Made by a program: the position numbers and the translations under genes
The notes under the pieces: model-generated
Told to the model about the DNA's origin: nothing
The model's input: the letters and a program-made list of their open reading frames with translations, nothing else
Database searches by the model: none
NCBI GenBank assembly: GCA_006503535.1
Contig: QYRS01000003.1
Coordinates: forward strand, 4,526,001-4,590,000
DNA: 64,000 nucleotides
DNA from: Arthrinium phaeospermum
Lineage: Eukaryota > Ascomycota > Sordariomycetes > Amphisphaeriales > Apiosporaceae
Direction: 5' to 3'
Shown here: positions 37,328-64,000 of the stretch, one piece after another
Layout: each line of letters opens with the position of its first letter
Position numbering within the stretch: the stretch's first letter is position 1

Positions 37328-37344
37328 TATATAAAGCACCATGG
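37328..37344 (+). promoter_or_regulatory. TATA/CCATGG core element, array member 1
   Basis: TATATAAAG followed by caCCATGG, 259 nt before the first codon. The same TATAAA-then-CCAT arrangement recurs before members 3, 4, 7, 8 and 9. Confidence 0.6.
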
Positions 37345-37586
37345 CCTGCACATAAACCACGAGATGAAAATTCTCATCGAACACCGAACCCAAGAAAAGC
37401 ACACTTAGTACTGTCCCTTCATATACAACAACACTTTTCTAGACTCTCTCGGTTTCCCTCTGCTATCGTGTTGTCTTCGAGCCTCCTCTCTCCGGGACTT
37501 AGTGTTTCTGAATCCCCTGGTTCTCCTGAACTTGAACACCGTCGACCTGTCTTTCCGCATCAGTGCTTCGGCTTGAACCTGTTACA

Positions 37587-38148
37587 ACGAGCGATTCATC
37601 TCGCCGTCGTATATACGGAGGGTATGTTGTCGCATAGTTCCACCTCTTTTACCCCCATTCCCTCTACCACTTTGCTACATAAGTCCGTCTCCTTGGTGCA
37701 TTTCATTTTCAAGAGCCTCTGTTTGGACAGAGTGGTAGTCACTCTTCTCCATTGATCTCTAGCCAGAAGCCAAGGCCGGATCACTGCCCATAGCCCAAGT
37801 CATCGCTTCCTGACCTATGTGTATTCTCGTCAGGACAGAGACAACTGTCATCGTCATCCCCTTCTACAGGCACCACCGTCCCCAATTCAGTACACCTAGT
37901 CTAAGGAATCCGATGATAGCGAAACCCATTCAAAGCCTTCCCACTTCGTCGCTCAGAACATAGAATCTTCCTCCAAGGCATCAATTTCGCAGCAGAACGT
38001 GGCGTCGTACATGTCGGAAACCAACAGCGGCGGCGACCCTGTTACAGCTCTCTCTCTTCGTCCGTCTACCAAGAACATCGCCGACCGCCGGGCCAAGGTC
38101 AACCAAGACGTGGCTGCAGCATTGACTGTCCTCGAAAAATCCCAGTAG
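37587..38148 (+). pseudogene. Array member 1: small basic protein, ATG replaced by ACG
   Basis: Exons 37587-37621 and 37920-38148 (298-nt intron) would give 87 aa. Exon 1 aligns codon by codon with its siblings, but the start codon position reads ACG, and no in-frame ATG exists upstream before a stop. The rest is open: ETHSKPSH, then SYMSETNSGGDPVTALSLRP, then RRAKVNQDVAAALTVLEKSQ. So it is either a recent pseudogene or uses a non-AUG start. The 3' intron is clear: donor GTAAGT at 38181, 32 nt after the stop, branch ctgactaac and acceptor ending at 38274. Confidence 0.7.
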
Positions 38149-38274
38149 ACCAAACACCGCGGCTTTCTATGGAATCAGATGTAAGTTATATGCCAACATA
38201 AGCTTGGCTCTTAGCCTTAGGAACCACGTCCCGATATCATCATTGGCCAACAGACCTGACTAACAAGCATACAG

Positions 38275-40230
38275 TGCGGATGTAGTGCAAGCACCGTCCC
38301 CTCACCTAAATGCCCTATCCTCACAAATTTCCGATGACACAAGGCTAAGCTTATCGGCTTCGGCAGCTGCCGAATTGACCCAATAGAGTGGATTCAGGCC
38401 TAACGCGTGGGGCTAACAGGATTGTCGCACTGGGCTATCCTTTGCTACTTACAGGCGTACCTGATCACTTGCTAGGATCTAGCCGCCAGATAGGGAAGAT
38501 CACTGGATATGTCCATTTTCATGGTTCATTGCACCGATACGTACTGCTTCGAATCGCAGTTCAAAGCCATTGGTCATTGGAGAGATGGAGCACAGCTGGG
38601 AATTCCTAACTTATTGTTATATGAATTGACATCTTCCGTTCCGACTTCACCGTTTCTTGTTGATCAATTGTGCCCAATGACATCTGTTCCTGGATGCGAC
38701 TCATCGGAGACTCACTTTCCAATGCCATCTGATGGCCCCAAGTTAGTTTTGTTTGATAGAAGCTTAGAAGCCGAGTAGATAATTTTGAAATTTCTCCGAC
38801 CCGACCACTGGGTTAGTTTTGCAGACTGTCAAGTGGGCGTGTAAGTCACTCAATAAATGTTTGCAGCTAGATACATTGCTTTGTGCGAGATTGGGGATCA
38901 AACCCCGGGTCCGTGATAACTGTCCTCTTGCGGTGCAAGATGCGAGTCTACGTGGGTGCATTTCGGTTTGTGACAAATGACTTGGACAATTGGCGATACA
39001 GATGATCTTGGTCGTGATCCCCGACGGAAGGGATGCTGCTTAGCCACATTGATACATTCTCTTGAGTGCTTCATGGCCACTCTTAGCCACTCACTCTTAA
39101 GTAAGCTTACCTGACGCCACATTGCGTGCATGCTTAGCTCTAGAGCCTACGAATGTCGCAATGGCCTTGCCGGTGTTCCGTCAGTTCCACTGCGCCCAAC
39201 AATGGGTTCTTATCGTAGTAGGAGAGGGGCATGTTTCTTTCTAACGGACGAGAGTCGAGTCAGTGTCAACATGATGGGCTTCACCGGGCAAGGCGAACCT
39301 GCTGCGATTGAAGAAAAGCTGAATGTGAATAACCAGAGAGTGTGCGCGAGGCCGTCACTATTTGTGATCTTTGTCTTTGGATTCAATCCTTGCCACAGCC
39401 CAAACACCAAAATCTGTCGAAATATCAGCATTCTTTCGTAGCCTGGTGTCCTGTCATGTTGTTCACTTGTTTTATTCCGCATGTAGTGCGATGTTGATTG
39501 GGAGGTAACGCAATATGAAGAACAGGAAGACAGAATCAATAATAATAATCTGGTAGAGATAGAGAAGAGAGAGGTGTCTTTTGATTTCTTAGAGGCTACG
39601 GTTCTAATCCAGCGACCGTTAACACTTAATCAAGGGAGTCGACAATTAATCGAGTGAATTTCAAGAGGGAGTTGGGATCCGATTGCACCCCCCGCGTATA
39701 GTTGAAATGGTGAACGGGCACACATAGGAACATGAGTGGAAAGCGGAGCGACGGGATAGAGACTGGAGTTGCAACGGCGATTTTCAAAGGCGTCACAAGC
39801 AATAGGTTCAGCAAAAAGTTGTCGCAGAGGGGCGAGCGAGCAGGGTAACAAAAGATGTACCGTCTACCTCGCTCAAGACCGCCACTAACGCTCGACAAAT
39901 AGTACTGGTACCGCCAGAATTAGCCTTGTGCCCTGGCACACGATTTCGGGCAGCTCTTGTGATGGCTACAGTCGACCGTTGCAGGCAGCAAGGATCTCGG
40001 AAAGCGCGACCGCCAATCGCCTGCTAAAAAGGAGGCAGGCTGTCCAATGAGAGGTTTGGTCCATCGGCATGGATCCACCACCATCAGCAACTCCTGAAAT
40101 ACTCTCGTGGTTGCTACACCGAAAGTAGAGCAGAAAGAAGTGCTGAATAGCCCTTCGGAGCAAATAGATCTTGCCTCTTCGTCTTCCTGTTGATTGGAAG
40201 GATTCTGGGCTGAGATCGGTATGTGACGTC
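38275..40230. other. Array spacer 1-2
   Basis: No gene recognised. Short frames on both strands lack family features. It contains the promoter of member 2. Confidence 0.5.
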
Positions 40231-40239
40231 TATTTAAAC
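40231..40239 (+). promoter_or_regulatory. TATA-like element, array member 2
   Basis: TATTTAAAC lies 293 nt before the ATG of member 2, a distance like that of its siblings. The CCATGG part is missing, so the call rests on position and AT content. Confidence 0.4.
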
Positions 40240-40523
40240 TAACGACTTCCCCAGCTTCCCCTACGATGGTCGTCTTGAAAGCTCGTCATCAAGCACCAAG
40301 GGGAAAGCAAGCATCATTCTATCGCGCTCCCGAGATCGTAGCATCATTTTGTCCCCCATTAGCTCTCGCCATTGTCATTACAGGAAGAGACCGCCATAGC
40401 CCAAGGTTGTTCTCTGTCCAGATTTCATCCCCAAGCCACCCTGGCCTGACACTGGTCTTCTCAGGACTTGATAGCCACTTGCCTTTCCATCTCCCTGGCT
40501 TATAACTATAGGAATCGTCACAA

Positions 40524-41133
40524 TGGGAGAATCATCTGATCGATGTGTTTATGGAGGGTATGTTGTCTGATGTTTCTTCCCTTGCAAACCTCTTCCATTG
40601 CGATCCTTCTGATGGTGGCCATGTGCCATCCGGCGTCGTAAATGCGGTTCTTTTCATATCATTGCTTTCAAACTACACCACGTGCCAAGTACATAAGGAG
40701 AAGGTACATGTAGCCATCACTAGCCCTCCCGCATTATGGATGGTACCTAGTTCCTAGCTTCCAGATTCCAACCCTTTTTATTGGGGATCTTCCCTGCTAC
40801 CCCTCCTCACCCCACCTTTCCCCTCCAATTGCAATTGGCAGCACTTATGCCTGGCACCTGGAACTGGTCTATCTTGCTGCATACATTCTTATATATAACA
40901 GTGAAACCCCCTCCAAGCGCTCCCACGTCGTCGCCGAAAACACCAGCTCCCCTTCCAAGGCATCTATGGCACGCATGAACGTGAAATCGTACATGGAGTC
41001 TAAGAACGGGGGCGGAGACCCGGTCACAGCTCTTTCTCTTCGCCCCTCGTTGTCCAAGAGCGTCACCGACCGCCAGACAAAGGTTCAGCGCGAGATGGCG
41101 GCATCGCTGGCTGTACTTGACAGGTCTCAGTAG
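40524..41133 (+). CDS. Array member 2: small basic protein of the tandem family
   Basis: Exons 40524-40558 and 40902-41133 (343-nt intron, acceptor TATATAACAG) give 88 aa. The protein reads MGESSDRCVYGG, ETPSKRSH, a linker SSPSKASMARMN, then KSYMESKNGGGDPVTALSL and RQTKVQREMAASLAVLDRSQ. It has all family parts and looks intact. A GTAAGT donor lies at 41166, 32 nt after the stop. The fold is unknown; the C-terminal third should form an amphipathic helix, and the linker is rich in Ser/Lys and likely disordered. No targeting signal is seen. Confidence 0.75.
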
Positions 41134-43701
41134 ACCGCATATGGTGTGCTAAACCTCGATCAGACGTAAGTGTCATGCCATAAGTCGGGATCCCAACCCA
41201 GACATCATTGCTGGCCAATTGTACTGATAAGTGAGTGATACCAAGGGCGGTTTCCATTGGGTGTAACATGCTGCTCCCAACGGCCTGGATGCTGATACTA
41301 GGGGGTGGGATGTCTAGGAGCGTTCTTGTGTAAGTGCTGCGGAGCGGGTACCTGGTTTAACCTCATCTACGGCAGCAGCCGGCGTGGGCAAGTGCCGGAC
41401 GGATAGGGCTACTAGCATCATCGCATCTGGGCCATCTTTACTTATGGTGGTACCTTGCAGATGTGGGTAATCTTCCGACTGGGATCTACCAGCCACAATA
41501 CTGTAATGTATTTTCCCGGCCGTTTTACAATTGACTCTTACGCGAGATTGATGTCTCCTTTTTTTCTTTTGGCCTACTCGCTCGTCCCACAAACGTGCCA
41601 CTGAATGACCTGATCCTTTATCCAATCCACCAAGGTTTTAGTCAGACCAGCGCTTCTCTCGACTCTCTCCGATCACTCACACTCGTGTTCATGTAAATTC
41701 TGAGGCCTGCCATACAATTCTCGGTGTTTTCCTGCGCAACAATTGAGTTCGTTTGACTGCCAACTCGACTGCCTCGCCCAACCTATCCACGCACTCATGC
41801 GCCAATGCCAGTCTTTCATTGCTTGCGAGTTGGCCGACATCCGCTGCGGAATACTCAGGGCTATCTAAGACACTCGAAAATGTTCACTGTCAGTCTCAGA
41901 GGATCGCTTGTCACGCTACGACAACAGGAAACAAGCTGTTGATTGAAGCCAAGTCAAGGCAAGTAAAGGATACTCCGCGGGCCGGTTTGTGTTTGACGCC
42001 GTACGGATCCCTCTACCTAGCATTACCCTGACTGACGTGGTCCTCATCTTAGACACTATGGGGCATAGTTCCCGTTCTCTCGCCTATAGATTCTTCATGG
42101 CCCTCATGGCCAAGCCCGCCGGTCGTTTAGTCAGGAGTGCCTGGTAGTTGGTATTACATCTGCACTACTGTCTTGTCCTGCACTAGACGGGCTGCCTCTT
42201 CTCGACCACCCACGTCAGTTTCCATGTCTAATCACATTGGGCAGTCGCATGTGTAAGGATACTCACGATTGCGGGGTGTGTGCCCGTCTATACGCAAATG
42301 CAAGGGTATGTCAGTCTGAACCTGAGTGCGGATATTATGCCGAAACAAAAGCTTATCTGCGATCATCGTCTGATGGGCTTGCTGCAGAGGCTAGAGCCAA
42401 TGACCATGGGAAAGAACAGATCTGAACCATCCAGGCTCCCTTTGAGGTCACAGATGATGCGCCTCCTGTCTATCCCCCTCATTTCGGCAGCTTCCTCAGG
42501 GCAGATCTCCTATCAGTCTATACCACTACCTATCAGCCCAGCCAGGACGCTCCTGCAACGTCATCGTGTCTGCAATACGAAGCGAAAGCTTGAAGAGTCA
42601 GCAGGACACTGGTATGCTGCATCCACCATGTTAGCATCCTCAACATCGTTCCTGTCCAGAGTAAAAGCACTTTGCCCGGCAACAACAGCGAGAGAAATAT
42701 GTATTATCTTCCCCCCTCCCCCCACGAGCTGCATCGCGTGAACTATCGCGACTGAGGTGCGGTGACTAGCAACGACATACGAGCGGCTGTTGTCGACTGT
42801 CGCCTGTGTGTGTGTATACTGTCAGGAAGCAGGGCGGCATTCCCAATTCACACGGATAGGATTCGATGGTGTGATGACCAAAAACACCGCCAGTGCGAGG
42901 ATGATTGACGTGGTAGAGACAAGCAGCGACCCCATTGCTACTGGCAAGAAGGGGAATGGCGTGCACATTACCAGCTACAGACTTTGCAATTCGCATTCTG
43001 CCAACCGTTTAATGCCGTCCTCAGTTCGTTTCAGCTGCATCCAATGGTTGGGATTGTCTTAGCCGCTTCCAGCTATCTACTTGCGAGTGGCCCAGCTACT
43101 TGACCTGCCGACAGCTCGATACTGGTGTCCGGCGAGGAGGTCGTCGTCCCAAGGAGGTTTTGATGGCAACATCGACCAATGCTGCTGTACTGATGTCAGA
43201 GAATGAATCTCGGCCCTTGAGCAGATCGCGGCCACACTCGACAATGTTTGCACCTCTTCTTGTCGATGTTCCTGCATTAGTGTCAGGATTTCGGTGAGCT
43301 CAAAGCAAGGGAAGAGGAGGGGGTGCATACCCACATCCAGTACTACATGGACAAAGAGCCGTGTACAACTGGCACTACAAGACCGGGAAAATACGGACAT
43401 GATCTGATCCCACCTTACCATCCGCCCGGTCCCCGTCCTCCACCTGTGATTGGGTCCCACATCAAGTCCACCAGTTATGGCCTGTGAAATATGACCGGCC
43501 TCTATTGGAGGACGCGATGCCTGAGGATATCTTGATAGATGCTGTGCGTCTGATACTAACGTGCGAGCGATGCAATTCCCCGTGCAGTGTGATTTGCTGG
43601 CCGGTACTTGCATTTTCTCGCTCATGCTACTCCAAGAGGTAGGTAGCAGGTTCAAGAGTCGAACTCGAACGGACAGGCTTGGACCGAATGTGGTGCTGCT
43701 C
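41134..43701. other. Array spacer 2-3
   Basis: About 2.6 kb without a recognised gene. A minus-strand frame of 192 codons (43077-43655) has no motifs and a composition unlike the confirmed genes, so I do not call it. Confidence 0.5.
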
Positions 43702-43716
43702 TATAAAGATCCATGG
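43702..43716 (+). promoter_or_regulatory. TATA/CCATGG core element, array member 3
   Basis: TATAAAG followed by atCCATGGG, 280 nt before the ATG of member 3; same layout as at members 1, 4, 7, 8 and 9. Confidence 0.6.
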
Positions 43717-43981
43717 GCTTTCCTCCTCTTTCTCAGTGTTGTTGGAAGCTCCCATCATCGAAGAACAAGCAAGGCCAGGCGAGAGAGCTCATCTTCTTGG
43801 CTACCTATTCTGTTCATCGCCTCTCGATTACTTTTGTGCATCGAATGCTACAGACCCCATACTGTCACCTCTGCCCACTACTTGTCTATTCTATTGCACA
43901 TCTACTCGCCTGATTTTGACCCTCCTTGGTACCCCCGGCTTGTCTACTGCATTCAAGCTCGTATACTCCCACGGCCTAACG

Positions 43982-44575
43982 ATGACTCGTTCATCTGAGC
44001 AAAGTATCTATGGAGGGTATGTTGCTGCGATCATATTACCTTCTCGCTCCTCTTGGCTCTCTGTTCTCTCTCTCAACATCTACGCCCTTTAAGTGTCCGA
44101 GTTCTTCTCCCTAAGCCAAGACCCTTGGCTGGGAAAATGACCGTCCTGATTCCATTCATGAATCACATACGCAAGCCCTCTCCCGCCCAGCCATCTTCAT
44201 AGTGGTTCGACTTGTTGAGTACGACAATCGACTGCCTTGTCTCATTGACATCTTCACTCCTTTTTTAGCCCTCTTCCATCGTTACCTGAGTAGGTAGGAT
44301 GCTGAAGCTGGGAGCTCATTGTCGTTGTTGATCTGGATGCTATGATACTCACACAGAATAGCGAGACCCCATCCAAGCCCTCCCATGCCATCGATGAGAG
44401 AATCAAGTCCTCCAAGAAGTCAATTGCGAAGGGGGAAGTCGACTCGTACATGTCGACCATCAACGGGGGAGGGGATCCAGTGACGGCCGTGGCCCTGAGA
44501 CCAGGGTCCTCATCTGGGAGCGCTGCCGAACGGCGGGCCAGGATCGAGCGTGAGATGGCCAAGGTCTCGAGATAG
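43982..44575 (+). CDS. Array member 3: small basic protein of the tandem family
   Basis: Exons 43982-44016 and 44362-44575 (345-nt intron) give 82 aa. The protein reads MTRSSEQSIYGG, ETPSKPSHAIDE, SSKKSIAKGE, then SYMSTINGGGDPVTAVALRP and RRARIEREMAKVSR. It is the shortest intact member because the C-terminal helix ends early. A GTAAGT donor follows the stop by 49 nt (44625). Exon 1 and its surroundings closely resemble member 6, suggesting a more recent common origin of these two. Confidence 0.77.
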
Positions 44576-45084
44576 ATGTAGCATTGGCAGGGTCCCATGG
44601 AGCGTACATTGCAACAAGCTGGATGTAAGTGTCGTTCACTGCGCATGCTTGGCTTCCAGAAGCAGCGTCCAGTAAGGTTAGATCTGGTCGGGGTGTGGAA
44701 TGTCCGAATGGGGGTGGCGGCACCTATCCAATGAGATAGCTAGGAGGGTGACAACGTTATCCCATGTTTCCAGCAAGCCAGGATGACGGGCTGGGCTGCC
44801 CGTCCTTCTAACTGTGAATAGACTAAACCCATGCATGACTGCAGTTCCGAGTCGTCTTGGCGACCATCCACTAGGCTCAAAACGGTACACTGAAGCTTCG
44901 ACTGGACTGGAAAAGGAGCCTGTCATCTCTCTAAATGACGACAGCACGGTACAGATACGTGCCCATTAACCACCGTTGAAGTGTTTCCCAGCTTTTGTAC
45001 ATCTGCCTGCTTCGTATTATATATATGCATGTTCGAGTACTCGGGGGCAGTCCAGCGAGCAAGGCCAGACCGAAAATGACAATC
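44576..45084. other. Array spacer 3-4
   Basis: Shortest spacer of the array; it holds the 3' intron of member 3 and the upstream region of member 4. No other gene seen. Confidence 0.5.
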
Positions 45085-45098
45085 TATAAAGTCGCCAT
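45085..45098 (+). promoter_or_regulatory. TATA/CCAT core element, array member 4
   Basis: TATAAA followed by gtcgCCAT, 448 nt before the ATG; the longest leader in the array. Confidence 0.55.
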
Positions 45099-45532
45099 TT
45101 CCTCCCCGGCTGTTTCTGTCCGATTGTTGTCGGAGGCCACATCGAATCCGAGAGGAAATCGAGAACAGATAGAGCAAGCAGATTTCTTCTCAGTCAGTTT
45201 CCATTTGGCAAGCGATCTTTCTTCACATATCACCGCATCCTACCCACTTCCCCCCACGAACACCAGTTGCTGTTCTTAGCCAATCACCAGACCAACGCGA
45301 GAACACCCCCAAGCAGGAAAACGCAGCGCGTATTCCTGACAGCGCTACTAATACGTATGGACATCCTCCTGCCACCCAGCAAGTCGCCGCGTCGAATACA
45401 TCTAACATCCTACCCTATAGCTAGCACTGTTTTGTCCCGTTGCGCACCTGCTTCTCTAGTCACCACCTATTTGACATATCGCCACTTCATCTACGACACC
45501 TGAGCTTACAAGACCCCTCGCCCTACGTGTCA

Positions 45533-46204
45533 ATGGCTGGTTCATCCGACCAAAGTGTCTACGGAGGGTATGTTACAGAGTCTATTTGACTGCGTTGTCA
45601 CCCCTATCGTCTACTCCAGGAGCAACACAGTCTCGTCCTTGGCAGAGTTCTCCCATATCGCATATGCTATTGACTCGAGTGAGTCGGCTCTCAGACTCCC
45701 CAGTCGACACCCGATGATGTTGAACTTGTCACCTACTCCATTTTCTCCAGCTTATGATGATCATGGATGACAGCCGTTCGCTCTTGCCGTATCGTTCTCA
45801 TTATCTGTGTCTCGGTCACTTCTTCTTCTCTCACTTACTGTCCTCCCCGGGGGTTGGCAGAGCATCCTTGCTGCCCAAATATACTGTATTAGCTACTGAG
45901 ACACATTCCCTCTCTTTGACACTTCACTGCTGTACTTTGGCCATTCCCTGCGTGTCTTATTCAAATCCTGACCCTGAAAAGAGCGACCCCTAGCAAGCCC
46001 TTCCATACCGTTAAAGCTAGGACCCATGGCCCCTCCAAGAAGTCGATGTCGAAAAGGAACACCAAGGCATACATGTCGACCAAGAACGGCGGCGGCGACC
46101 CGGTAACAGCTTTGGCTCTGCGACCCGAGTCCTCGTCGCAGAGCGCGACTGAGCGACAGGAAAGAGTCGCGCGCGAAATGGCCGAAGCACTGGCACAGCT
46201 GTAA
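45533..46204 (+). CDS. Array member 4: small basic protein of the tandem family
   Basis: Exons 45533-45567 and 45982-46204 (414-nt intron) give 85 aa: MAGSSDQSVYGG, ATPSKPFHTV, GPSKKSMSKRN, then KAYMSTKNGGGDPVTALALR and RQERVARE ending MAEALAQL. The acceptor is CTGAAAAG ending at 45981; using the next AG (45984) would bring a TAG into frame, so this choice matters. A GTATGT donor lies at 46264, 59 nt after the TAA stop. The protein is close to the family consensus and looks intact. Confidence 0.77.
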
Positions 46205-49060: not shown

Positions 49061-49069
49061 TATATAATT
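49061..49069 (+). promoter_or_regulatory. TATA-like element, array member 5
   Basis: TATATAATT lies 196 nt before the ATG of member 5. The CCATGG part is missing. Confidence 0.45.
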
Positions 49070-49256
49070 CTACAGTTACCTCCCAGCTCTTTTTGGAATC
49101 GTGGGATCGTGGGACAAGCAAAACTAGGGCAAAGCGACCATCTCTGTTTGCAACCCGCTATACATTCTTCTCACTCGCAGCACTCAAATCAAGGCGCGTC
49201 TGCCGTGTAATCTACTTTGCACTTTATATTGAATCTCGACATTCTTCAACTGACCA

Positions 49257-49742
49257 ATGGCTGGTTCTTCATCTGACCAGGCCGTCTATGGCGGGTACGT
49301 TGTACGATGTGTCTATCTTCTCATGCTGCTGAGGGTGACGGGGTCTTTCATTGGTCGGAGTCGGCCGGCTCCTGTGCCACACCTCATACCGCTTGCCCGT
49401 ACGCCTCTCATGTACCTCCCCTTCTTTATCCGCTGTGCCCCTGGCTGTTAATGTATACATACTTGACTCTGCTCCTTTCTGCCCCCTGTCGGTGCAAGCT
49501 TTCATCTCATACATCACAGCGTAACCCCGTCCAAGCCTTCCATCGCCATTGTCGCCAACACCCCATCCCCCTCGGCAGAGTCCATGTCAAAAAGCAAAAT
49601 CGATGAATTTCTGAAGGACGGCAGCCGGGAGAGCCTAGCCGAGCGCAAGGCCAGGGTAGAGCGCGTGGTGGCTGCAGCCTCGGCGGTTCTGCCCCCTGGC
49701 GAACCACGTGGTGGAGTGCATACACGCAATGCACCTAATTGA
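49257..49742 (+). CDS. Array member 5: diverged small protein lacking the central GGGDPVTAL motif
   Basis: Exons 49257-49294 and 49520-49742 (225-nt intron) give 86 aa. Exon 1 has one extra Ser codon (MAGSSSDQAVYGG). Exon 2 opens normally (VTPSKPSIAIV, ESMSKSKIDEFLKDG) but then jumps straight to SRESLAERKARVERVVAAAS: the YMS...NGGGDPVTALALRP block that is almost invariant elsewhere has been lost in frame. The C-terminus is longer (GEPRGGVHTRNAPN). A GC donor (GCAAGT at 49745) follows the stop directly. It may have a changed role or be drifting toward loss, though the frame is still open. Confidence 0.7.
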
Positions 49743-52700: not shown

Positions 52701-53575
52701 TGGAAGCAGTGGTGGGCAGATATTCTGCCTAGGTGCCAGGTTCAGTCTCTGCCAATGGTCGTTTCGCTGCCCACCCCCTCTGACTCTCTGGAGGTTGATT
52801 GGAGGTCCATGGCCTCCATCGGAACGACAGACTAGTACAATATGCTTCAATGAGACGACATAAGTACTAGATACCGAGGAGCGACGGCGTTGACAGGTGC
52901 CGGCAGGGGAAAGTATGTGTTTGGTCACCCAGCAGTACCTCTACATCTAGTCTCTCTCCAGGCGATCCAGGGCGAAGAGGGCTTGGGTCTACAATTCACG
53001 GCTCGACTCGGCAACAAGAGTGAGGGCTGGGTCGCATTTCTGGCGATCTATATCGGGACAGATGGACAACTACGCCATAGGACGGGGAAGCGCATGATTG
53101 GTAACAGAGCATGGAGAGCCTGGAGGTGAGCTTGTACCATAGCATCAGGCACAATTTATTTTGTCTACTTTGCTATTATAATCTTTCCTTTTGTGACTTG
53201 CCAGATCTACTCGAGTCACAATGGCATTGGGCTATCGGCTGCTTTGGGCCCCTTGTTCAAACAGGGCGGCCTATTGAGGACCACCTCCTTCACTGGGATC
53301 GAAAGGCATGATCATGTTGACCATCAGGGTTTCTTTTTGCGTCTAATCTGAGGGTTTGCCCGAGTGATGTTCTTTTCGGGCATACCGTAGTGGTCATAGA
53401 GAGACGTTTCTCAGCCTTAACCCAGTGACAAACTCTTTGTCGCGAGAACTAGATCCCATAGATCCAATCACAATCGCAACATAGCGAAAAAGGTCAACTC
53501 AGGAGAATATTGTGAGTCAAGGGAGTCGTGGGCTTCAATGGGATATCCCATTCGTAGAGTTTGAGATTAATTATG
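49743..53575. other. Array spacer 5-6
   Basis: The longest spacer, 3.8 kb. No convincing gene; the open frames are short and on both strands. No exon-1-like or GGDPVTA-like sequence was found here, so it does not seem to hide a tenth member. Confidence 0.45.
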
Positions 53576-53590
53576 TACAAAGTCCCATGG
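53576..53590 (+). promoter_or_regulatory. Degenerate TATA/CCATGG element, array member 6
   Basis: TACAAA followed by gtcCCATGG, 275 nt before the ATG; the T-to-C change weakens the TATA box. Confidence 0.4.
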
Positions 53591-53850
53591 GCGCCCAACA
53601 CTTTCTATCGCTGAAAGTTCTCGTTGAAAGCAAAGAACGAGAAAAGTCAGGCAAGAGCAGTCAGTGTCTCGTTTGATTTAACGATCTTCATTCAAACTTG
53701 TATCCCTACATGAGAACTCATCTTCAGTTAAACGGCATATTTTTGCGAAACTGCGTAATTGATTCATCTGTTCTGAACGTCTTGCTCAACTCCGGCTCTT
53801 CTATTACCGCTAACCTTCCAACCTTTTATACTCTCACGAGCACGCCAACG

Positions 53851-54578
53851 ATGGCTCGTTCATCTGAGCGAAGTGTCTATGGAGGGTATGTTGCATGACC
53901 GTGCTGTTTCTATCTCTTTCTTTTATTCAAACTCCAGACCAGGAAAGAATTTGGGTCTCCCCTGTAGCTACCTCGTGGCTTTACACACATTTTTCTGCCC
54001 ATTTCCATTTCTTCCGGGTGCAGTGAGCTGTTTGAAAAGCCGACCAATCTGCCTTAATTGACCATCCCACATTTTCCTTCCGATCTTTTCTTACACTTAT
54101 CCAATCCGGCAGAGTTGTGAGTCGAAGGGGTTTGTTGTTCGGCTTGCCCAGTGTTCTCCGGTGCTTTTGATTGAAGTCTCAGTCTCATCATGAAGGAATA
54201 TTTTCGACCCCCATCCCCCTTTGCATCGGCTCTTGTCTTGTCAGTTATTTCGGTGGAACGACCGAGACTCACCTTAGCCCGTGAGACTACGTTCGGCGTC
54301 GAACCTGTACCTCATTCTGTCATTTGCGTGTGCCAGATCTCACACATGATGATAGTGAGACTCCGTCTAAACCCTCCCACGCCGTGAAGGACAAATTCAA
54401 ATCTCCCTCCAAGAAGACAATGTCCAAAAAGAAGACGAAGTCTTACATGTCGGACATCAACGGCGGCGGAGATTCTGTCACGGCCTTGACGTTACGACCT
54501 GTATCTCCATCTGCAAGCACGGCCAAACGACAAGCTAGAGTCGAGCGGGAGATGGCCAAATCCCTGGCGCAGCTGTAG
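53851..54578 (+). CDS. Array member 6: small basic protein of the tandem family
   Basis: Exons 53851-53885 and 54356-54578 (470-nt intron, the longest) give 85 aa: MARSSERSVYGG, ETPSKPSHAVKD, SPSKKTMSKKK, then SYMSDINGGGDSVTALTLRP and RQARVEREMAKSLAQL. It is among the members nearest the consensus; GDPV has become GDSV. The GTAAGT donor lies at 54623, 44 nt after the stop. It is strongly basic (many Lys in the linker). Confidence 0.78.
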
Positions 54579-55510
54579 CCCACCCATCCAGATGCTGTAT
54601 GCGCAACACAGCTCTCTCGAGTGTAAGTTGTCTTTCTTTTTCAGGTCATTGGAATAACATCCCGACACCTTTTTCCTTGATTTGCTCCATTTCCGAAATG
54701 AACTACGGCGTTAGTCTGTCGCTGATGTGACGATCTCTGATTGTTGCAGATTTGATTGACTGACACGATGATTGCACAAGATTGGGACGCACTAAAACTT
54801 ACCCGTTGACAGCACGTGGAAACCCCCACCTTCAAGGCTGATTTGCACCAGCGCTGCCTGTCTGCTGAACTTGGGTAGAATCTACAGCCATTACAAAGGT
54901 ATCGCAGGGTTTCACATTGAGGATTTTCGCATCTAGAGGTCCGCATCACAGTCGTCTGCATTGGGTGGTTCTGCTGCACGCACCGGGACAAGAACCAAAG
55001 ATAATCACTACAGTTCTATTCCAGCAAGGAAAAGAGTCATCAAGGAGCGACTTAGGCGAACACATGACCTCAGGACTACTTTAAAAATATACGTACCTTT
55101 ACTGCATTGACTTGGTCGGCTTCTGATTGGCGCTCAGGATGCGAGCCAAGCAACTAGTAGTAGGTCTCTGGGTCTCAAGACCTCGCTTTCTCAGTTCATC
55201 GCCAATTTTCATTCGCCAAGTCCGCATAGCGTATGGCATTAACCAATACGGATAGCCACTGCGTATGGGAATATTCCCCATCCCTAGGCCGTTACCCGCA
55301 AGCAATACATGCATAATGCGGTTATCCCGTATAAGTAATTCACCGCCAAGCCTGTGACACTGCTAGTTCGCCCAGGTCTAAGGAGGGTCCTCCTGCCCTG
55401 CGACCAGTGAGCTTGGAGGGAAAGTGGGCCTACTTTTTCTTCGTTATGGCGGGATCTGGGATTCCATCCCATCGTAGATAATATTTAATACCCCAGTCCG
55501 AGGACTATGA
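54579..55510. other. Array spacer 6-7
   Basis: No gene recognised; it holds the 3' intron of member 6 and the upstream region of member 7. Confidence 0.5.
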
Positions 55511-55528
55511 TATATAAATTCGCCATGG
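55511..55528 (+). promoter_or_regulatory. TATA/CCATGG core element, array member 7
   Basis: TATATAAAT followed by tcgCCATGG, 290 nt before the ATG. Confidence 0.6.
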
Positions 55529-55800
55529 TCTCCTCAGGCCTTGTTACTACACTATTGTTAAATGTCTCTATCGGAAACTACGCCGACTATAGCTTAGCCA
55601 ACATCATTTGTCACTTTGTCCATCATCCGTTTGTGTTCCTTCTTCCCGGCTTATCGAGAACAGTACCTCGGGACCTGGGTTGCAGATACGGACACTCCTG
55701 TCTCTCTATCTACACTGTCTCAACCTGGTCTAAACTTGTCTGTATATAACCCACTTCTTTGCTCCATACGTGGTTTTCAGTACCCATTCTCCATCTTGAA

Positions 55801-56402
55801 ATGGCTGGATCATCTACTCAAAGTGTTTATGGGGGGTACGTTAAATTACATGATTCCTTGCCTCACGACCTTCCTGAGCTTTTATCTACTCTGCCAACAT
55901 TAAGGCTGTCTCATTACATCTCGGGTCCTTGCTAGATTAGACGGCCACGCACTGTTCACTCTCTTCCCAACAGTCTAGAACCCGCTTTCCCATGCCGGTG
56001 ATGTCGGTGATAAGTGTTGTGGATTCATCGCTCACCTAGCATCTCACCACTAAGTACCCAAGTACCTTGCGCAGTCCCCCATCCAAAAATGGACAATTGG
56101 GAACACCATTGTCCAATCATATTCCACTTGTTTCTCGTTACTTGAGTGTGTCGGGCCTTACACAGAACAGTGCGACCCCATCCAAGCCACCCAATGTCAT
56201 TACCGCAAGCACCGAGTCCCCTCCCAAGACCGAGATCTCTCGCAACAGTGTAGAGCTGTACATGGCCATCAAGAACGAAGGTGGAGATCCTGTGACGGCC
56301 TTGGCCCTGAGATCCGACACTCTACATCAAAGCGTAGCCAAACGGCAGGACAGAGTGCAGCGCGAAATGGCGGCATCACTGGAGCGATACGGGAAACCGT
56401 GA
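55801..56402 (+). CDS. Array member 7: small basic protein of the tandem family
   Basis: Exons 55801-55835 and 56171-56402 (335-nt intron, acceptor CACAGAACAG) give 88 aa: MAGSSTQSVYGG, ATPSKPPNVITA, ESPPKTEISRNS, then YMAIKNEGGDPVTALALR and RQDRVQREMAASLERYGKP. Intact and close to consensus, less basic than members 3 and 6. The GTAAGT donor lies at 56432, 29 nt after the TGA stop. Confidence 0.78.
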
Positions 56403-59400
56403 GACGCACACATGGATCCAATGGCTCAATTGTAAGTGACGACGGTTCTGTGGTGGATCGCGATGGATCAATGCTGCGATGTTCCACTGACACAAAATGT
56501 GCAGTGCAGTGCATCCGATCTCATCCGTTTCTTGACAGATTGGCGCAACCAAAAAGTTCAGAAGAGGCCTAAAGTAGTGGGGTATCCACATAATAAGGTT
56601 AGTGTTGGTACCCGTACCTACCAGCTGGCCGGGTCCGTTAGCCAGGTCGGGCCTTTTTCAGCCCAAGCCGGCATCTTCCCTGAAGAGACAGCTGGGCAGC
56701 TAGGTTCTGGAGGGGTGTCTGAGAGGGGTGTCTGAAGGATTACACCGGATAAAGGCCCCAGATCAGCCATCTAGAGTCTCAAGCTTTCAATTCATAACTT
56801 CTCTCATCTACAATAGCCTACTTCACGAGAGTGACATGTCCGCCTATCAATCCCCACGCAAACACCCCGCTGTTTCCCAACGGAAATCGCCAGCATATCT
56901 ATGCGATACCATAATACGACAACTACGGTCAGTCACATCGGTCTATCGTCAGCTGTTCGGTCCTGGTCTCCGGGCTTGAATCACTTAAGTGCATGTCTGT
57001 TTTACTCGGCAGAATCGGCATTCTTTGGTTTGGCACATTCAAACCAGTGATACTAGATATTACCTATGAGAGGACCTTGAGCATGAACCTGACTCATTAG
57101 AATTGAGCGAATCCGAGGTTTCTGTGAGATATCCCCAGGGGCCCTGCCTCTGTCTGCAACGGTACACGTGGTGAAGCCAGACCCTGAATGGCCCAGTCTG
57201 TGTCGCCAATTGACGATGTCGGCAAAACAGAATATCCGCGGCGCGGCTGGTTCGGACTACTCAAGGAAATGGTTGACGGCATTGCCAAGGCTCTCGCTTA
57301 ATGCGATGGTTGATTTGTGACGTGTCAATGATTTGAAACCAAGAAAGCAGAGAATTATGCCTCGTCAACGCTTTTCCGCATAATCACGCACAATGGAGGC
57401 TGCCTCGACCTCGAATCGCCCGGAGATAGTGCGGCCATGACGTGAAGGGGCAGCTTCTTGCAATGCGAAACACACCCAACGGACTCAGGGCAGGGGCCTG
57501 TTCATTGCTGCAAATCGACGCGAGATGCACACGGCTGTCTTCTACACAACTACAACAGTGTCGCTTCCGGTACGATTATATCGCAATGTGATCGAATGTA
57601 GTGGTGCCGATGCAAGTGTTTCGACGTCGCGATGCCCATTAACCTGTCTTTGGAAGAAGAGACTGTAGCTGAGAGATGAATCGCATTGGAGTGATCGTGT
57701 GACGCATTTGCCACGTAAGCTGAATGGGGTCGTAGAAGCCCTTGCCCTCTTTCTTTCGGTCTGACATGGGAAGAAACGAGAGAAATTGGGAAGAGGGGAA
57801 TTGTGATTCACTCTTCCTTCAACTCAAGGAGGCTCTGCGTGGTTCGCCCTCCAGTCCGCCTGTTTTTTTCGGTGGCGCTCAGGCAACCCCGTCATGAGGG
57901 GTAAAACAGGTTCGGTAGGGTTGCGATCTACACTCAAGGCATCCTTGAATGCGCGCCCCACGAATCACTGAGTTAGGCACTCTAGACTTGACAGGGCGAA
58001 CTGCCGTCTTTGGGAAGGGAAAGAGGATATTTTCGGTGAGCAGAAGGCAATGTCTTCCATAAGCGCCTCGTCGACCACATGCACTTGGCTGCCTTGGAGG
58101 AGCTGCCGCGGACCAATCTTACACTGGCTGCCTCGGAGAGATTGCCAGGGACCGATCAATGCAGCTGCCTTGGAGAATGGTCATACAAGATCGTTTTCGC
58201 AATTCCAACAACAGAATTGGATATAAGAGCGCATCAGGTCCCTTCCCCCAGTTTGGACATTTCCCATCTCATATTTTCTTACTCGTCAGGACATAGGTGT
58301 GCGATACGACTTCCCAGGACTGGTGGTATTTAGACATACCGACAACACGACAATTCCATATCCACCCTTCTATATCATCTGCTCTGGCTGCCGTTGGGCA
58401 ACATACACACGATTCAACAGGGGGGACATTGTATCCGTATCCAACGGCTACAACAGACTATGATATTATGATGCACGCAATGGGCAATTGCTGAGCAGGA
58501 AATGTTCTACGGAGGGACGAGATGGAGTCAAGCGAGGGAAATTGGAGGAAACAGACCTCTGGTCAATCACAATTCGTCGTTGGATACGGCTGTTCTGAAT
58601 GCCAGGCCTTTTCAGGTGCCGTTTCAGCTACCCATACTTGATAGATTATGTACCGGTAAACCATTCATCCATATCTGAACCTTGAAAACATGTAGTCTCT
58701 TGTTAGAATCAAACAATAGTTGTTAGTGATGCGCAATTTATAAGGGAGCCTGAGTCTGAGGCGGCAGTCTTTCGTTGCGTTTGCGTACATCCTGTCCTGA
58801 GTTCACTTCGGCTGCTGTCGTTAGACACTATGCGGATACGATGCTGTAGGCGATGACAGGAGCTATCTGGTGAGGATAGGAGGGAGATAACTTGGCACAT
58901 TTCAGAGGAATGTTATACAGCATTACAGATATTTGAAGCATATGAAAAGAAAAGTAAGAAGAAAGGGAACATACTTCCATAAGTCAAAGGATCTCCAGAC
59001 AACGGGGATTTCGTACAGCATGTTCCCCGTAGTTGTTGTATTCCCCGGAAAGACCTTCGGTGCATACTGCGGAGGAGCAAATGATACTTTTGACTCTTAA
59101 CATTTGCATCACCGAGATAGCCAACGTCCAGGTGTGTGTACTTTACATGGCCATTTCTTAGACAACGGCAAAGGGCCAGTGGATGTGGTACAGATGCTGC
59201 ATGCAACTGGCGCGAAACAAGCTTGAGGAGGCGTCGGGGACTGCCATTTACAGACGACATCTTGGGTACTTGTTTCGACCCAGCATATGCGCTGGTCCCA
59301 GAAGGCGTGGCGTCGCATCACATCGAGGAAACAAGGAGGGCCGTGCGCGAGGTGGAATTCGCCCTGATCACGCTTGCTTGCGCATACAATGGGTTGCCAC

Positions 59401-59882
59401 GGCACTTCTCCAGATGCTTAGAGGTCTTTTTAACGAGTGGACAATGCATGCTTGATCTGTACCACTTTTATAGAAGTAAAATTCATGTCGTGAATAAGAT
59501 TTTGAAAGCATGCGCAGGGTAACTTTATAGTTACTTAACGCCGGGAGGTTAAAATAAGAAATTCGATTTTATAATAGCACCTTAGTAAGACCGCCCGGGG
59601 ATGGGAAATCGAAAGTATTGACGTGAGCTGAGTTCTTAATAGCTTGGACAGCTTGGGACGCGCGCCAAATTCTTCGGTGAGCATGGGTACTTAGGCAAAC
59701 ATAAGGCAAGAGGTACCTTCGTACTTGACCAGGCCAAAGAACAAAACCCTATTTAAGACATCAGTTCCAATTGTGGCCTGTGCTTAAGCCTACTAGTAGC
59801 TAGCACTCCTCTGGCCATACCCCTCCAGTCTTCATTACTGTCTCTGTCATTAATATTAAATATAAAACCACCCATCACCAGT
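56403..59882. other. Array spacer 7-8, with short tandem repeat and AT-rich end
   Basis: 3.5 kb without a supported gene. It contains a roughly 38-nt tandem repeat (58087-58176) and an AT-rich stretch (about 59520-59990) that may be a decayed element. A plus-strand frame at 59136-59522 was considered and not accepted. Confidence 0.45.
58087..58176. repeat. Imperfect tandem repeat, unit about 38 nt
   Basis: Two units (58087-58125 and 58126-58163) begin ggctgcct-ggag and contain gcc-ggaccaatc / gggaccgatca; a third partial unit (agctgccttggaga) follows. No function is evident. Confidence 0.7.
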
Positions 59883-59990
59883 TATATAAATGCCATGGCA
59901 TCCTCTAATACTATAAGGATTATGCCGCGAGTACTCTTATTATATTAAAGGACCTACGGCTTTTATCTATATATTGGTATTCTCTTGACT
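59520..59990. other. AT-rich stretch, possible decayed element
   Basis: It is visibly richer in A, T and TpA than the flanks (for example tattaatattaaatataaaa, ttatctatatattgg). This fits a remnant altered by repeat-induced point mutation, but no parental element or terminal repeats can be seen, so it is only a suggestion. Confidence 0.3.
59883..59898 (+). promoter_or_regulatory. TATA/CCATGG core element, array member 8
   Basis: TATATAAA followed by tgCCATGG, 305 nt before the ATG of member 8, within an AT-rich stretch. Confidence 0.6.
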
Positions 59991-60187
59991 CACCTGTCCT
60001 CCGTCTTATACTTGATACGATTAGCCCCGCCACTACACCTGCACTTAAAAGGCCAATCCGATAGAGCTAAAGATATACCTCGAAGTGTTTTATTTCCACG
60101 TCCGAGACAAGTCGACAGGGTTTCTGTTCAAATCCCGAGTTTCTCTTGGAGTCTTCTTCCTAGTCCTTAGACACGAAACTACCAGCA

Positions 60188-60828
60188 ATGGGCGGCTCGT
60201 CAGATCGGTCCGTACGTAGCGGGTATGTATGACACTGTGATCATGTCTCATTCCAACCCGTTTCGTCACATATTCCGTCAGACTCTTGCCCAGCCGTATG
60301 AGGCGCGATGGATATGAAGCCAGTAGCTTTTGTCAGCCTTGTTCGTCTGTGATCCATGTGTTCTATTGCTGCTTTGGCTTCATCAGTGCTGCGAAGCAGC
60401 ATTCTTTCGTATCAATCCCACAGCCATATATAGCAAGTACACTTGAAGGCAAAAGACTTGGAACTGGCTCGAGACTGACCGCCATTGTTCCTAGAGAAAC
60501 CCCCAAAAAGCATTCCCACACGGTTGCTAAGAAGACCAACAAGACGGCATCCAAAACTTCGATGTCCCACGACAAAGTGCAGTCCTATATGTCAACCAAG
60601 GACGCAGGCGGGGACCCTGTGACCGCCGTCGGCATACGACCCGACTCTCCCGCCCAAAGCAGGGCCGACCGCCATACTAAAGTTAAGGGTCAGGTTAAGG
60701 GGGCCCTGCAGAAGCTGGACAAGACTTTGGTAAATGAGCCTCTCCAGTTCCCGGAATGCGATATTGTTTTGGATGATGAAGATTGTGTAAGTGTCAAACC
60801 AACAGAAGTAACGAAGCTGTGTTACTGA
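60188..60828 (+). CDS. Array member 8: diverged, C-terminally extended family member
   Basis: Exons 60188-60222 and 60495-60828 (272-nt intron) give 122 aa. Exon 1 reads MGGSSDRSVRSG, so the VYGG end has changed. Exon 2 keeps ETPKKHSHTVAK, KTSMSHDKVQSYMSTKD, AGGDPVTAVGIRP and an ADRHTKVKGQVKGALQKL helix. The usual stop after the helix is lost and the frame runs on through an acidic tail (VLDDEDC). At 60787 the GTAAGT that in siblings is the 3' UTR donor falls inside this frame; splicing there would give another C-terminus, while retention gives VSVKPTEVTKLCY and a stop. Members 8 and 9 form a sub-group by exon 1 and by ETPxKHxH. Confidence 0.72.
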
Positions 60829-63467
60829 AACAAGAACAGCACAAGCATGGTGAACCTTGAAGACATCCGTCATACCTACCCGAACGGTCGACACACCCTT
60901 GTCTTATTAGCTCCTGCGTCCCGACGCCATGGCTACGTGGGGGCGAAATCCCCCCGATACGGTTAAGTTCGATCGAGACCCCGCCATTCGATACCAAATG
61001 GAGTCAAGCGCAGTTCTGTACATGTGGTTCGAGTGACAGGATCTCACATTGAAAGTACCTATTTCAAGAAGTCTGCCGCCAGGTTGGAGCGGCCCATATA
61101 TACTACTGGAACTGGTTGGTCACAACACACTTGGTCCTGCATCCTCGAGATGACAAGAAGGGGGTATCCCGGCCACATATACGCGGCCGAGGATCTGGGA
61201 TCTGGTTACAATGGATTGCTGGTAGCTGAAATTTGGAGGAAAAAGAGCACAAATGGCCCCTAGCTTTTCCCTTTCCTTTTCCTGCAGTTTTCTGAATTGC
61301 GCCCAGGAGCTTCCTCTGCGCCGCATTTCTCAACACATAATCTTCCTGTTGGCGTTTTCAAATCGGAGGTCTTGATGGGCATCTATCTAATGGCTGTTTT
61401 TTATTATTTCCAATCAGCCCAGCAATATGTTGGCGGCAGCCTGAAACCAGTTGATGGTGACATATTTGGTCCTTCCTCCTCCGCTTCAGAAAATAGCAAT
61501 CCTAGGATCTGTAACTGACTTTTTGAGGGTGTAAAGGCACCATAGTTGCATATGAAAGCTGAAGATGTCCGAAGTGATCTAGAACAAGAGACGGTAATTT
61601 TTTGATGGGTGACTGGTCACTTCGTCAATGAACTGGCGGATGAGAAGATCTTTGGTGGCTCGTTCTGTATGATGCGAACTGGACATGGCTCCCTTGTCGA
61701 AGTTCCGTGTCGCATTTGTTGTTTTCCTTGTGTGTGCGGGTGGACCAAGCTCTGGACATCACTTTGTCCAATGATCCATTCGTATCATACCCCGGTATTC
61801 ATCAACAGCGGTATCTGATGAGGATCCTGTGGCTAGAAGCACCAAACCATGTGGCTATTTCTCAGGTCAGTAGGGCGATCAAGCTGGATTTGGATCCATT
61901 TCCTAGAAAGAAAGGTGTCGGGGCAGCGGCTGGCGGCGTCACCCATTTTACCCCGCCGACATTTTTCTGAACCCGCCTTTCCCCCCATGATGACTGCCGA
62001 CCGTTCCCGCTCTCTTCTACGGGCTTTCCTACATTATCCTGACCAGACAACAGTAGCGGATGTCATGTAAGGGCCATGGAGCATGATGTAGTGAAAAGCT
62101 CCTGTCAGTTGCTCAGAAAACCACCGGAAAGGGGAAATTGAAAATCTGGAAGGCAAATCGTCCAAATTTCTAGGATCATTGATAGGCGCAATGCGTGACT
62201 TTTGATGCGGCAGTAATTGAAGTGAACCACAGCAAACCATCCCTGAATTCGAGTGGTGGCCCAAGAGAGGGCCAAATTGACCGGCTCATAGGGAATGGCA
62301 TTCATAATCGATCTTTGGCTAAGCCACGTCATTAGGTAATCAGGTGGGATGCGGTATTTGGTGGCGTGGGATATGCAGCGACAGCCATTGACAGGTCATG
62401 GACCGCGCTTGATCCAGGAAACTTCTCCAGGGGCTGTCTCGGAGAAAGTCTGTAGGGCTGGCCAGCTTCCTCTGCCGATGGCCGGGCCGCCTCGGATGCG
62501 TCTGCCTGCGAGCCGTTACCTTGCACCAACACCGCCCATTCGATGGTAATCAGGGGCCAGCGCTTGTCATTGCCGCCTTCTGATGGTGAGATTTTCATAT
62601 ATGAAAGCGCGCATCGGTACAAGCTCGCGAGCAGCGGTGGGTTGCCTTCGGATGTGGGTGCAAGCAAGGAAAGACAGGGATGAGCACAAGACGTGCTTTC
62701 CGAAATAGAAAGTACCGCAACCGCGAGCCTTCCTGCAGTCTAGCAAACAAAGCGGACAGCGCGCTTAACGTTGACGTTCCGCATATGCTCTGTCCGCGTC
62801 TATTGCCGCCGTAGACGAGGCGCGCCTCGAGAAGATCGTCCGTCAGCTCACTCCAGAGCACTCTCGCTCCCACTTAATATCATGCAGTTGGGCAATGCAA
62901 AAAAACAGCGGTGAGTGCGGCGCTTGATATCCACGTTCCACCGACTATACATCCGCGCCTATTGCCGCCGTGGGCGAGGCTTTGAGAAAGACCAGTGGCT
63001 TGACAGCAACCTAATGGGGCTGCGGTCTACATCCTTCAATTGCAGTATCTTTCGCTCACTGCCATTGGTATTGGACTGGCTGCTGAAGAGTCCTTGGCTT
63101 TCACAGATGATGGTTTATAGTGTCCATATGGATTCGTCGCACGCAAGCGATGGTTGCTATCGTATCCTATCAGATAAGGTGGTGCGAATAGCTCCCGAAA
63201 GATGCAAGAGGGTTCGTATCAATTATGCCTTGGATGTATTTAGGTCACATCGGGACTTCGTGTAAATAGATGAACTGCCAACATGCATAAGGCTGGTGTA
63301 ATAGTTCAACACGTCTGAAGTATGCGTAGGGCGGTTACACTAGCCAAGCATCTCGTGTCGGTTGAAGCGTCAGCATCGGCAGGTCGATAGCTTACAATGC
63401 TGTTCGCTGCACGTCATATCGGCGTTTGGCAAGGAACAAGTTTCATACTATTTGGTCTGGCACAGAA
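60829..63467. other. Array spacer 8-9
   Basis: 2.6 kb without a supported gene. It contains a partial duplication (62771-62820 and 62927-62977). Confidence 0.5.
62771..62977. repeat. Imperfect direct duplication of about 50 nt
   Basis: The stretches 62771-62820 and 62927-62977 share cgttcc, then tccgcg-ctattgccgccgt and g-cgaggc, with 106 nt between them. Origin unknown. Confidence 0.7.
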
Positions 63468-63480
63468 TATAAATATCCAT
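63468..63480 (+). promoter_or_regulatory. TATA/CCAT core element, array member 9
   Basis: TATAAATATCCAT lies 292 nt before the ATG of member 9. Confidence 0.55.
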
Positions 63481-63759
63481 CAAATGGTCAGAACCTGAAC
63501 GATATGATCTCCTCACGACAAAATGCATGCGAAGATTCCTTGATTTCACCAAGCAGTTACCAGATACTCCATCCAGTGATGCCCGGCATTTAACCAGGCC
63601 CCGGTCCCGTCCGTCTTGCACTCACCAGACTGGCGCCGCCACCACCGCACACGCCGATGCACTGAATCCGGACTCCTGTCTCAAGATCCAATCTTATATA
63701 CAATATCTTATCGATCCCATATTTCTTGTTCCTGAGTCTTGGTTGCGAAACCTTCGGAT

Positions 63760-64000
63760 ATGGGTGGCGCTTCGGATCGTTCCGTGTGTAACGGGTGTGT
63801 GTACCCCGGGAGCGAAATTTCCTTTCCATGTTCACCTCCTATTCCAATTCATGTCCGATCCATTCTAACCAATTATATTTCCAGAGAAACCCCGCACAAG
63901 CACACGCACGCTGTTGCCAAGACGAATGAGTCGCCATCTAAGAGTTCAATGTCTCGCAAGGCGGTCAAAACGTACCTGTCGACCCCGAACGAAGGCGGCG
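63760..64000 (+). CDS. Array member 9: family member cut by the window edge
   Basis: Exon 1 (63760-63794) reads MGGASDRSVCNG; exon 2 starts at 63885 and runs to the window end, coding ETPHKHTHAVAK, ESPSKSSMSRKAV, TYLSTPNEGG. The intron is only 90 nt, normal for this genome, while all other members have 225-470 nt. It pairs with member 8 in sequence. The array may continue beyond the window. Confidence 0.72.
   Translation, partial: MGGASDRSVCNGCVYPGSEISFPCSPPIPIHVRSILTNYISRETPHKHTHAVAKTNESPSKSSMSRKAVKTYLSTPNEGG

Follow-up and report, generated by a model that had tools for sequence, protein, structure and literature searches.

Families of small orphan genes in tandem are already known and not rare in fungi, thus the surprise of the array described here rests on its conserved motif and on its stability. 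The array encodes small basic proteins and lies on contig C3 of the Arthrinium phaeospermum genome (48.4 Mb in 19 contigs), for the most part inside the window, that is the whole stretch of 64,000 nucleotides that was analysed (C3:4,526,001-4,590,000); adjoining sequence was added to give 153 kb, numbered in extended coordinates. The closest deposited proteins are those of Apiospora marii: PG991_011905 to PG991_011909 and their homologues belong to the same family, share the same core and have consecutive locus tags, with an identity of up to 92% (copy c4 to PG991_011905), by which the host would be an Apiospora near A. marii. Con-6 (PF10346), of poorly known function, is also a small protein of fungi and contains a short motif in repeats; homology between the two families has no support from Pfam or hhalign. 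Precursors of dikaritin-type fungal ribosomally synthesized and post-translationally modified peptides are characterised by a signal peptide and by core peptides that recur between dibasic sites; this affiliation was rejected, as the array proteins have by eye a single module, no repeated cores and no hydrophobic leader. The class II hydrophobins of Trichoderma are likewise a fungal family of small proteins, to which the title of one report attributes purifying selection and birth-and-death evolution, and a passage of it eight conserved cysteines (PMC2253510). With none to three cysteines per protein in nine copies, the array proteins do not qualify as hydrophobins, and no homology is claimed.

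A preliminary description, made from the letters of the window, had counted nine copies. All nine were matched (E <= 2e-10) by a profile of seven spliced copies, c1 to c7, in which the first ten residues of c1 are out of frame; seven of these matches arise by construction, while c8 (E 1.3e-22) and c9 (E 1.9e-10) are independent of it. The ninth copy runs past the window end, and a tenth, c10, follows beyond it with a profile match at extended 65,490-65,705 (E 3e-24). The array thus comprises ten head-to-tail copies, all on the + strand, at extended 37,587-65,708. Profile scores were 58-127 bits for the ten copies, and the top scores in five mononucleotide shuffles of 36,001-66,500 were 6.0, 4.9, 4.7, 5.3 and 18.0 bits, the last corresponding to E 2.4e-4. 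The copies and the stretch that holds them are as follows.

36,000-64,000, no strand: low-GC stretch holding the array, G+C content (GC) in 2-kb steps 0.46-0.55 in the window; 0.51 for 64,001-66,000
37,587-38,148, + strand: copy c1; exon 1 37,587-37,621 (ACG for ATG), intron 298 nt, exon 2 37,920-38,148; nearest relative A. marii PG991_011909
40,523-41,133, + strand: copy c2; exon 1 40,523-40,557, intron 344 nt, exon 2 40,902-41,133; 88 aa; nearest relative PG991_011908
43,982-44,575, + strand: copy c3; exon 1 43,982-44,016, intron 345 nt, exon 2 44,362-44,575; 82 aa; nearest relative PG991_011906
45,533-46,204, + strand: copy c4; exon 1 45,533-45,567, intron 414 nt, exon 2 45,982-46,204; 85 aa; 92% identity to PG991_011905
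49,257-49,742, + strand: copy c5; exon 1 49,257-49,294, intron 225 nt, exon 2 49,520-49,742; open frame, GGGDPVTALxLRP core deleted
53,851-54,578, + strand: copy c6; exon 1 53,851-53,885, intron 470 nt, exon 2 54,356-54,578; 85 aa
55,801-56,402, + strand: copy c7; exon 1 55,801-55,835, intron 335 nt, exon 2 56,171-56,402; 88 aa; nearest relative PG984_005407
60,188-60,828, + strand: copy c8; exon 1 60,188-60,222, intron 272 nt, exon 2 60,495-60,828; 122 aa, C-terminal extension
63,760-64,000 (window end), + strand: copy c9; exon 1 63,760-63,794, intron 90 nt, exon 2 from 63,885; stop at 64,122, past the window
Extended 65,155-65,708, outside the window, + strand: copy c10; start of exon 1 lost

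Outside the array the 2-kb GC was 0.52-0.63 on the left side of the window and 0.47-0.67, mostly above 0.54, at 66-153 kb. Genome-wide protein searches with three different members returned at E <= 0.1 the array loci alone. The first found nine of the ten copies, missing c5, together with two rows elsewhere (E 0.167 and 0.208), the second all ten places, with c5 at E 0.8 only, and the third nine. The counts are lower bounds, and any copy at another locus that has diverged as far as c5 could escape detection. Within the 153 kb, tblastn gave no convincing further copy or relic: the best unassigned matches (E 0.011 and 0.012) lie outside the array, and inside it none was below E 2.7.

In the gene model exon 1 is short, the predicted intron is in phase 2, and exon 2 contains the core and a C-terminal helix. 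As a model, the two-exon layout of the preliminary description is compatible with the GT..AG borders and the open frame in all nine copies modelled (c1-c9; c10 was not modelled), with introns of 90-470 nt. Exon 1 encodes about a dozen residues with the consensus MxxSSxxSVYGG, ending in RSG in c8 and CNG in c9. The predicted intron interrupts a glycine codon after its second base, with GTATGT, GTACGT or GTGTGT as donor, and exon 2 starts from an AG acceptor; a CTRAY branch site at most 80 nt from the acceptor is present in five of the nine introns. The deposited A. marii proteins P0001, P0002, P0009 and P0015, which are gene predictions and not transcripts, cross the same junction and share the spliced N-terminus of the array copies. 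Seven copies have intact models of 82-122 residues (c2, c3, c4, c6, c7, c8 and c9), while c1, c5 and c10 look damaged from their sequence. In c1 the triplet at 37,587-37,589 is ACG; its frame is open from 37,536, without an in-frame ATG between the preceding stop and exon 1. Contrary to the preliminary description, c1 thus lacks the start codon and c10 the start of exon 1. In c8 the C-terminal extension (LQFPE...IVLDDEDC) is common to PG988_004457 of A. saccharicola (P0038), an extra conserved tail.

Selection was assessed by pairwise NG86 comparison of c1-c9, with c10 left out. The proportion of nonsynonymous differences was below that of synonymous differences (pN<pS) in 36 of 36 pairs, with means of 0.33 for pN and 0.64 for pS. 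The ratio of nonsynonymous to synonymous substitution rates (dN/dS, omega), a rough measure here, was 0.15-0.58 in the 34 pairs with computable dS, thus below 1 in all of them, in accord with the selection that the preliminary description had supposed and had wanted checked in this way; the three highest values (0.58, 0.52 and 0.52) all involve c5. Identity was 0.43 at third codon positions versus 0.65 at first and 0.69 at second positions. Among the nine copies, coding sequences had 0.640 matches per shorter length versus 0.563 after shuffling, whereas introns (0.658 versus 0.641), 600 bp upstream (0.541 versus 0.533) and 600 bp downstream (0.535 versus 0.536) stayed near the shuffled level, so the divergence of introns and spacers was rightly noted. 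These computations show that the family is held under purifying selection. It is extremely improbable that the array is decaying or non-coding, a set of chance open reading frames (ORFs) or relics of a duplicated element. Such decay would fit the lack of a start codon in c1 and c10, the lack of the core in c5 and the CTRAY motif in just five of nine introns, but seven of ten models are intact, pN is below pS in every pair, the coding sequences are kept against introns and flanks near the shuffled level, and homologues exist in other genera. Non-coding or chance ORFs are unlikely on the selection and shuffle results.

The core in exon 2 has the consensus NGGGDPVTALxLR, and the family is here given the name GGDPVTAL. 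Its strict form, N-x-GGDPVTAL-x-[LV]-R, is present in four of the ten copies (c1, c2, c4 and c7), and forms with one to three substitutions in c3, c6, c8, c9 and c10; the core previously ascribed to every copy is thus found in nine, with substitutions in some, and is deleted in c5. The pattern S-x3-R-x3-V of the C-terminal helix is retained in eight of ten copies, the exceptions being c1 (N for S) and c3 (I for V). In the alignment of 70 homologues A55, R59 and R70 never vary (70/70), followed by G49, G50, D51 and P52 (69/70 each), T54 (68/70), V53 (67/69) and N47 (67/70); in the C-terminal helix S66 is kept in 64/70 and V74 in 66/70. The best-kept part is consequently the middle of the protein and not, as had been stated, its ends. 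G, D, P, T and A make up the majority of the most conserved residues, and the linker rich in K, R and S has no invariant column. AlphaFold models of P0002 (Apiospora, 70 rows) and P0057 (Xylaria, 54 rows; the two alignments overlap) have a matching layout: residues 1 to about 28-30 unstructured at low confidence, a helix to 46, a short helix from 52, and a helix at 63-84 or 63-88. The predicted template modelling score (pTM) was 0.27 for P0002 and 0.29 for P0057, a predicted local distance difference test (pLDDT) of about 90 was reached only in the C-terminal helix, and no compact fold was predicted. The proteins are apparently mostly disordered. A Foldseek search of the first low-confidence model (P0002) against the PDB gave no match at E<=10, a result of little weight for such a model.

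We favour, tentatively, the reading that the array encodes small soluble intracellular proteins which dock through the conserved core onto a partner, because a short motif is nearly fixed across genera in an otherwise loose, apparently disordered protein. As computed, the module has a helix that ends in SYM, followed by the turn NGGGD, the short helix PVTALxLR and a longer helix at the C-terminus, in which one arginine is invariant and a serine and a valine are nearly so. It would act as a docking surface and fold on a single conserved partner. The proteins would be retained inside the cell, since no hydrophobic signal stretch is visible by eye in the family sequences. Each copy would be tuned individually by its N-terminal tail rich in Ser and Lys, and the copies would be retained through differing timing or partner affinity. 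Several points weigh against this reading. The core is gone in c5, although the frame is open: some copies may do without it, unless c5 is decaying. The strict form of the core is present in only four of the ten copies. Finite dS values of 0.9-2.8 are near saturation and make omega rough. The alignments of 70 and 54 rows were hand-picked from 101 homologues, mainly proteins whose ends are long, odd or absent being left out, and the mean pLDDT of the models, which are of single chains only, is low (66.6 for P0002 and 65.3 for P0057).

The preliminary description had proposed instead that the proteins bind nucleic acids or membrane surfaces through the K/R/S-rich linker and, in an extended form, the C-terminal helix. 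Their basic character was correctly recognised, with an isoelectric point (pI) of 9.0-10.4 in nine of nine copies, and K17 is retained in 47 of 55 rows, next to the invariant R59 and R70. The net charge is +2 to +11 across the nine copies, however just +2 to +5 in seven of them, and the linker lysines are not conserved by column. Amphipathicity is weak in helix 3, with a median shuffle rank of 0.195 and 37% of 70 rows below 0.1, and absent in helix 1, with a median rank of 0.715 and 2% of 64 rows below 0.1. Fixed core columns beside a variable linker favour an interface over bulk charge, and G, D, P, T and A predominate among the best-kept residues. Binding of nucleic acids or membrane surfaces is rather unlikely.

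The proteins could also be disordered protectants of spores or under stress, of the conidiation type, made in quantity and kept in several copies for dosage or stage-specific expression; Con-6, Con-10 and Hsp12 are models for such proteins. They are indeed small, multicopy and hydrophilic, with a grand average of hydropathy (GRAVY) of -0.44 to -0.89 in nine copies, and their N-terminus is predicted at low confidence. Con-6 was not matched in Pfam scans of eight own exon-2 reads and 35 homologues at E<=10, with filters that drop most matches above 0.1, so membership in PF10346 was rejected. Those Con-6 matches of the genome that pass the cut-off are on contig C5. When the family profile was aligned by hhalign with the genome's own Con-6 ORFs, a weak test in which one side consisted of single sequences, the probabilities were 0.3 and 0.1 (scale 0-100). 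Since the core is also kept more strictly than one would expect of a bulk protectant, and shared promoter words upstream were in no excess over the spacer background, we consider a protectant role improbable, and docking through the core remains our preferred reading.

Three protein searches, which reach proteins of up to 465 aa sharing 5-residue words with the query within a set length range, yielded 102 distinct family proteins: 59 from Apiospora, 32 from other named fungi and 11 of unnamed source. Lineage look-ups placed Apiospora marii and Pseudomassariella vexata in the Amphisphaeriales and Xylaria longipes in the Xylariales, all within the Xylariomycetidae, to which we take the remaining genera with named relatives to belong as well. 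On these three look-ups and this assumption, the named relatives are confined to the Xylariomycetidae. None of the listed relatives is named Hypoxylon, Daldinia or Pestalotiopsis, genera whose presence in the database was unchecked. Members of this fungal group live largely in association with plants. Such a distribution, the small size, the multicopy state and the damaged copies would suit effector-like proteins exported without a signal peptide, which act on other organisms and diversified as an array. No signal-like hydrophobic stretch is seen by eye, however, cysteines are few (0-3), the pattern is purifying and not diversifying, and the core is retained across genera; an effector role is very unlikely.

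The deposited names of the relatives are hypothetical or uncharacterized. UniRef labels two of them, P0016 as DUF3606 and P0063 as phage integrase SAM-like; both labels were rejected, as a Pfam scan of these two proteins gave no family at E<=10. Neither label was matched in the eight own exon-2 reads or the 35 homologues, among which no Pfam family reached E 0.05. The precomputed Pfam column is blank for all 102 homologues and thus reveals no fusion with any known domain, and two profiles had no match at E<=10 in a PDB sequence search. Three matches are longer relatives of 146-465 aa (P0031, P0085 and P0102) with by eye a single module each; P0031 and P0102 have no Pfam match. P0092 of Rosellinia necatrix apparently carries two diverged modules by eye (TGDPVT...R and NGGGDPVTALGMR), again with no Pfam match. 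Searches of the open-licence literature found no paper on the motif, on tandem orphan genes of Xylariales, or on lineage-specific tandem arrays with repeat-induced point mutation (RIP), and the family is not mentioned in the passages of PMC10999098 on matching terms. The family is undescribed in the databases and literature searched, yet its proteins are already deposited. Within these searches, the check for a well-known family found none, and the idea of a selected family of unknown role and without a described relative is supported.

One FastTree tree was calculated from the ten own copies, 59 Apiospora proteins and five outgroup proteins; the proteins are short and many nodes weak. Every array copy has its closest neighbour in another species, by a clear margin for eight of ten (c1, c2, c3, c4, c7, c8, c9 and c10) and a small one for c5 and c6. 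Locus tags are by convention a proxy for gene order. The PG984 tags 5399, 5400, 5407, 5408, 5409, 5410 and 5411 correspond to c10, c9, c7, c4, c3, c2 and c1, the reversed order of the array; an eighth member, 5379 (c6-like), is out of order. In nine genomes with at least four members, which are related and therefore not independent, the order agrees for 82 of 105 untied pairs in the better orientation, compared with a permutation mean of 68.7, and 18 of 5000 permutations reach 82. Agreement is imperfect: PG985 has 14 concordant versus 13 discordant pairs. Its first tag group is collinear (c4, c3, c2, c1), its second too (c10, c9, c7) save for tag 9720, a loose assignment (distance 1.16); assignments by tree distance are also loose for genes of A. 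arundinis and A. kogelbergensis (0.9-1.2). Because the copies are nearest to genes of other species and the order is partly conserved across Apiospora, the array appears, as far as sequences tell, to predate the species sampled, to have escaped homogenisation by gene conversion and not to be the product of a recent local expansion. The lineage expansion presumed before holds only at the level of the genus or deeper, as the array is old and has position-specific orthologues in several Apiospora species.

It is possible, though on balance doubtful, that a new family was born in the Xylariomycetidae, with the 13-residue NGGGDPVTALxLR as a docking element not seen before for a conserved cellular partner, and that Apiospora keeps functionally distinct paralogues as an ordered array. 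If restricted as the searches suggest, this would be a clean example of an orphan family in fungi that purifying selection maintains and whose short motif hardly varies. Filamentous ascomycetes often lose close duplicates to mutation, and an old array with position-specific orthologues would offer a system for asking why paralogue order lasts in these fungi.

While the ten copies are contiguous here, family tags are split into two groups about 200 apart in A. marii PG985 (9512-9515 and 9717-9721) and A. saccharicola PG996 (3031-3035 and 3239-3240), which suggests that a rearrangement has broken the array. Some other fungi also have related genes whose locus tags are neighbours, e.g., HD806DRAFT_535110/535111. 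For a subgroup of proteins from five Apiospora genomes (P0024, P0027, P0041, P0042 and P0079; node support 0.977) none of the ten copies is a counterpart; searches for four of these proteins covered the 153 kb, not the whole genome, and found nothing.

Between the copies, a Pfam scan of a selection of ten longer spacer ORFs gave no match over the cut-off, in line with the earlier impression that no other recognisable genes intervene. A mobile element was rejected for the two spacers searched: the genome contains no other copy of the c5-c6 spacer (4.0 kb), and for the c7-c8 spacer (3.7 kb) only one stray match of 53 nt. Rfam had no match in 36-64 kb, and no transfer RNA gene was found in the window. 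A RIP-mutated region was also rejected, as the composite RIP index is negative over the array, with 8 of 116 array windows above 0 versus 45 of 610 overall. The short, diverged paralogues might be spared from RIP. DNA methylase-family matches number four in all, including C14:812,602-813,519 and C15:676,527-677,711 (open frames of 825 and 1278 aa), and could include enzymes of the RIP or DIM-2 type.

The genes beside the array, identified by ORF scans and not as full gene models, give no hint of its function. To its right follow an ORF with a weak NICE-3 match, the nucleoporin Ndc1, a 60KD_IMP match below the cut-off, ALG11 and a PHO4 phosphate transporter. To its left lie:

34,757-35,338: 4HBT thioesterase
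29,413-30,009: GTP cyclohydrolase I
26,641-28,659, - strand: ORF of 672 aa with an FAD-binding domain at residues 310-453 and an N-terminal part that is methyltransferase-like by eye
25,566-26,768: ORF with a phosphomevalonate kinase domain, beside the 672-aa ORF
22,854-24,122: carboxylesterase, beside the 672-aa ORF

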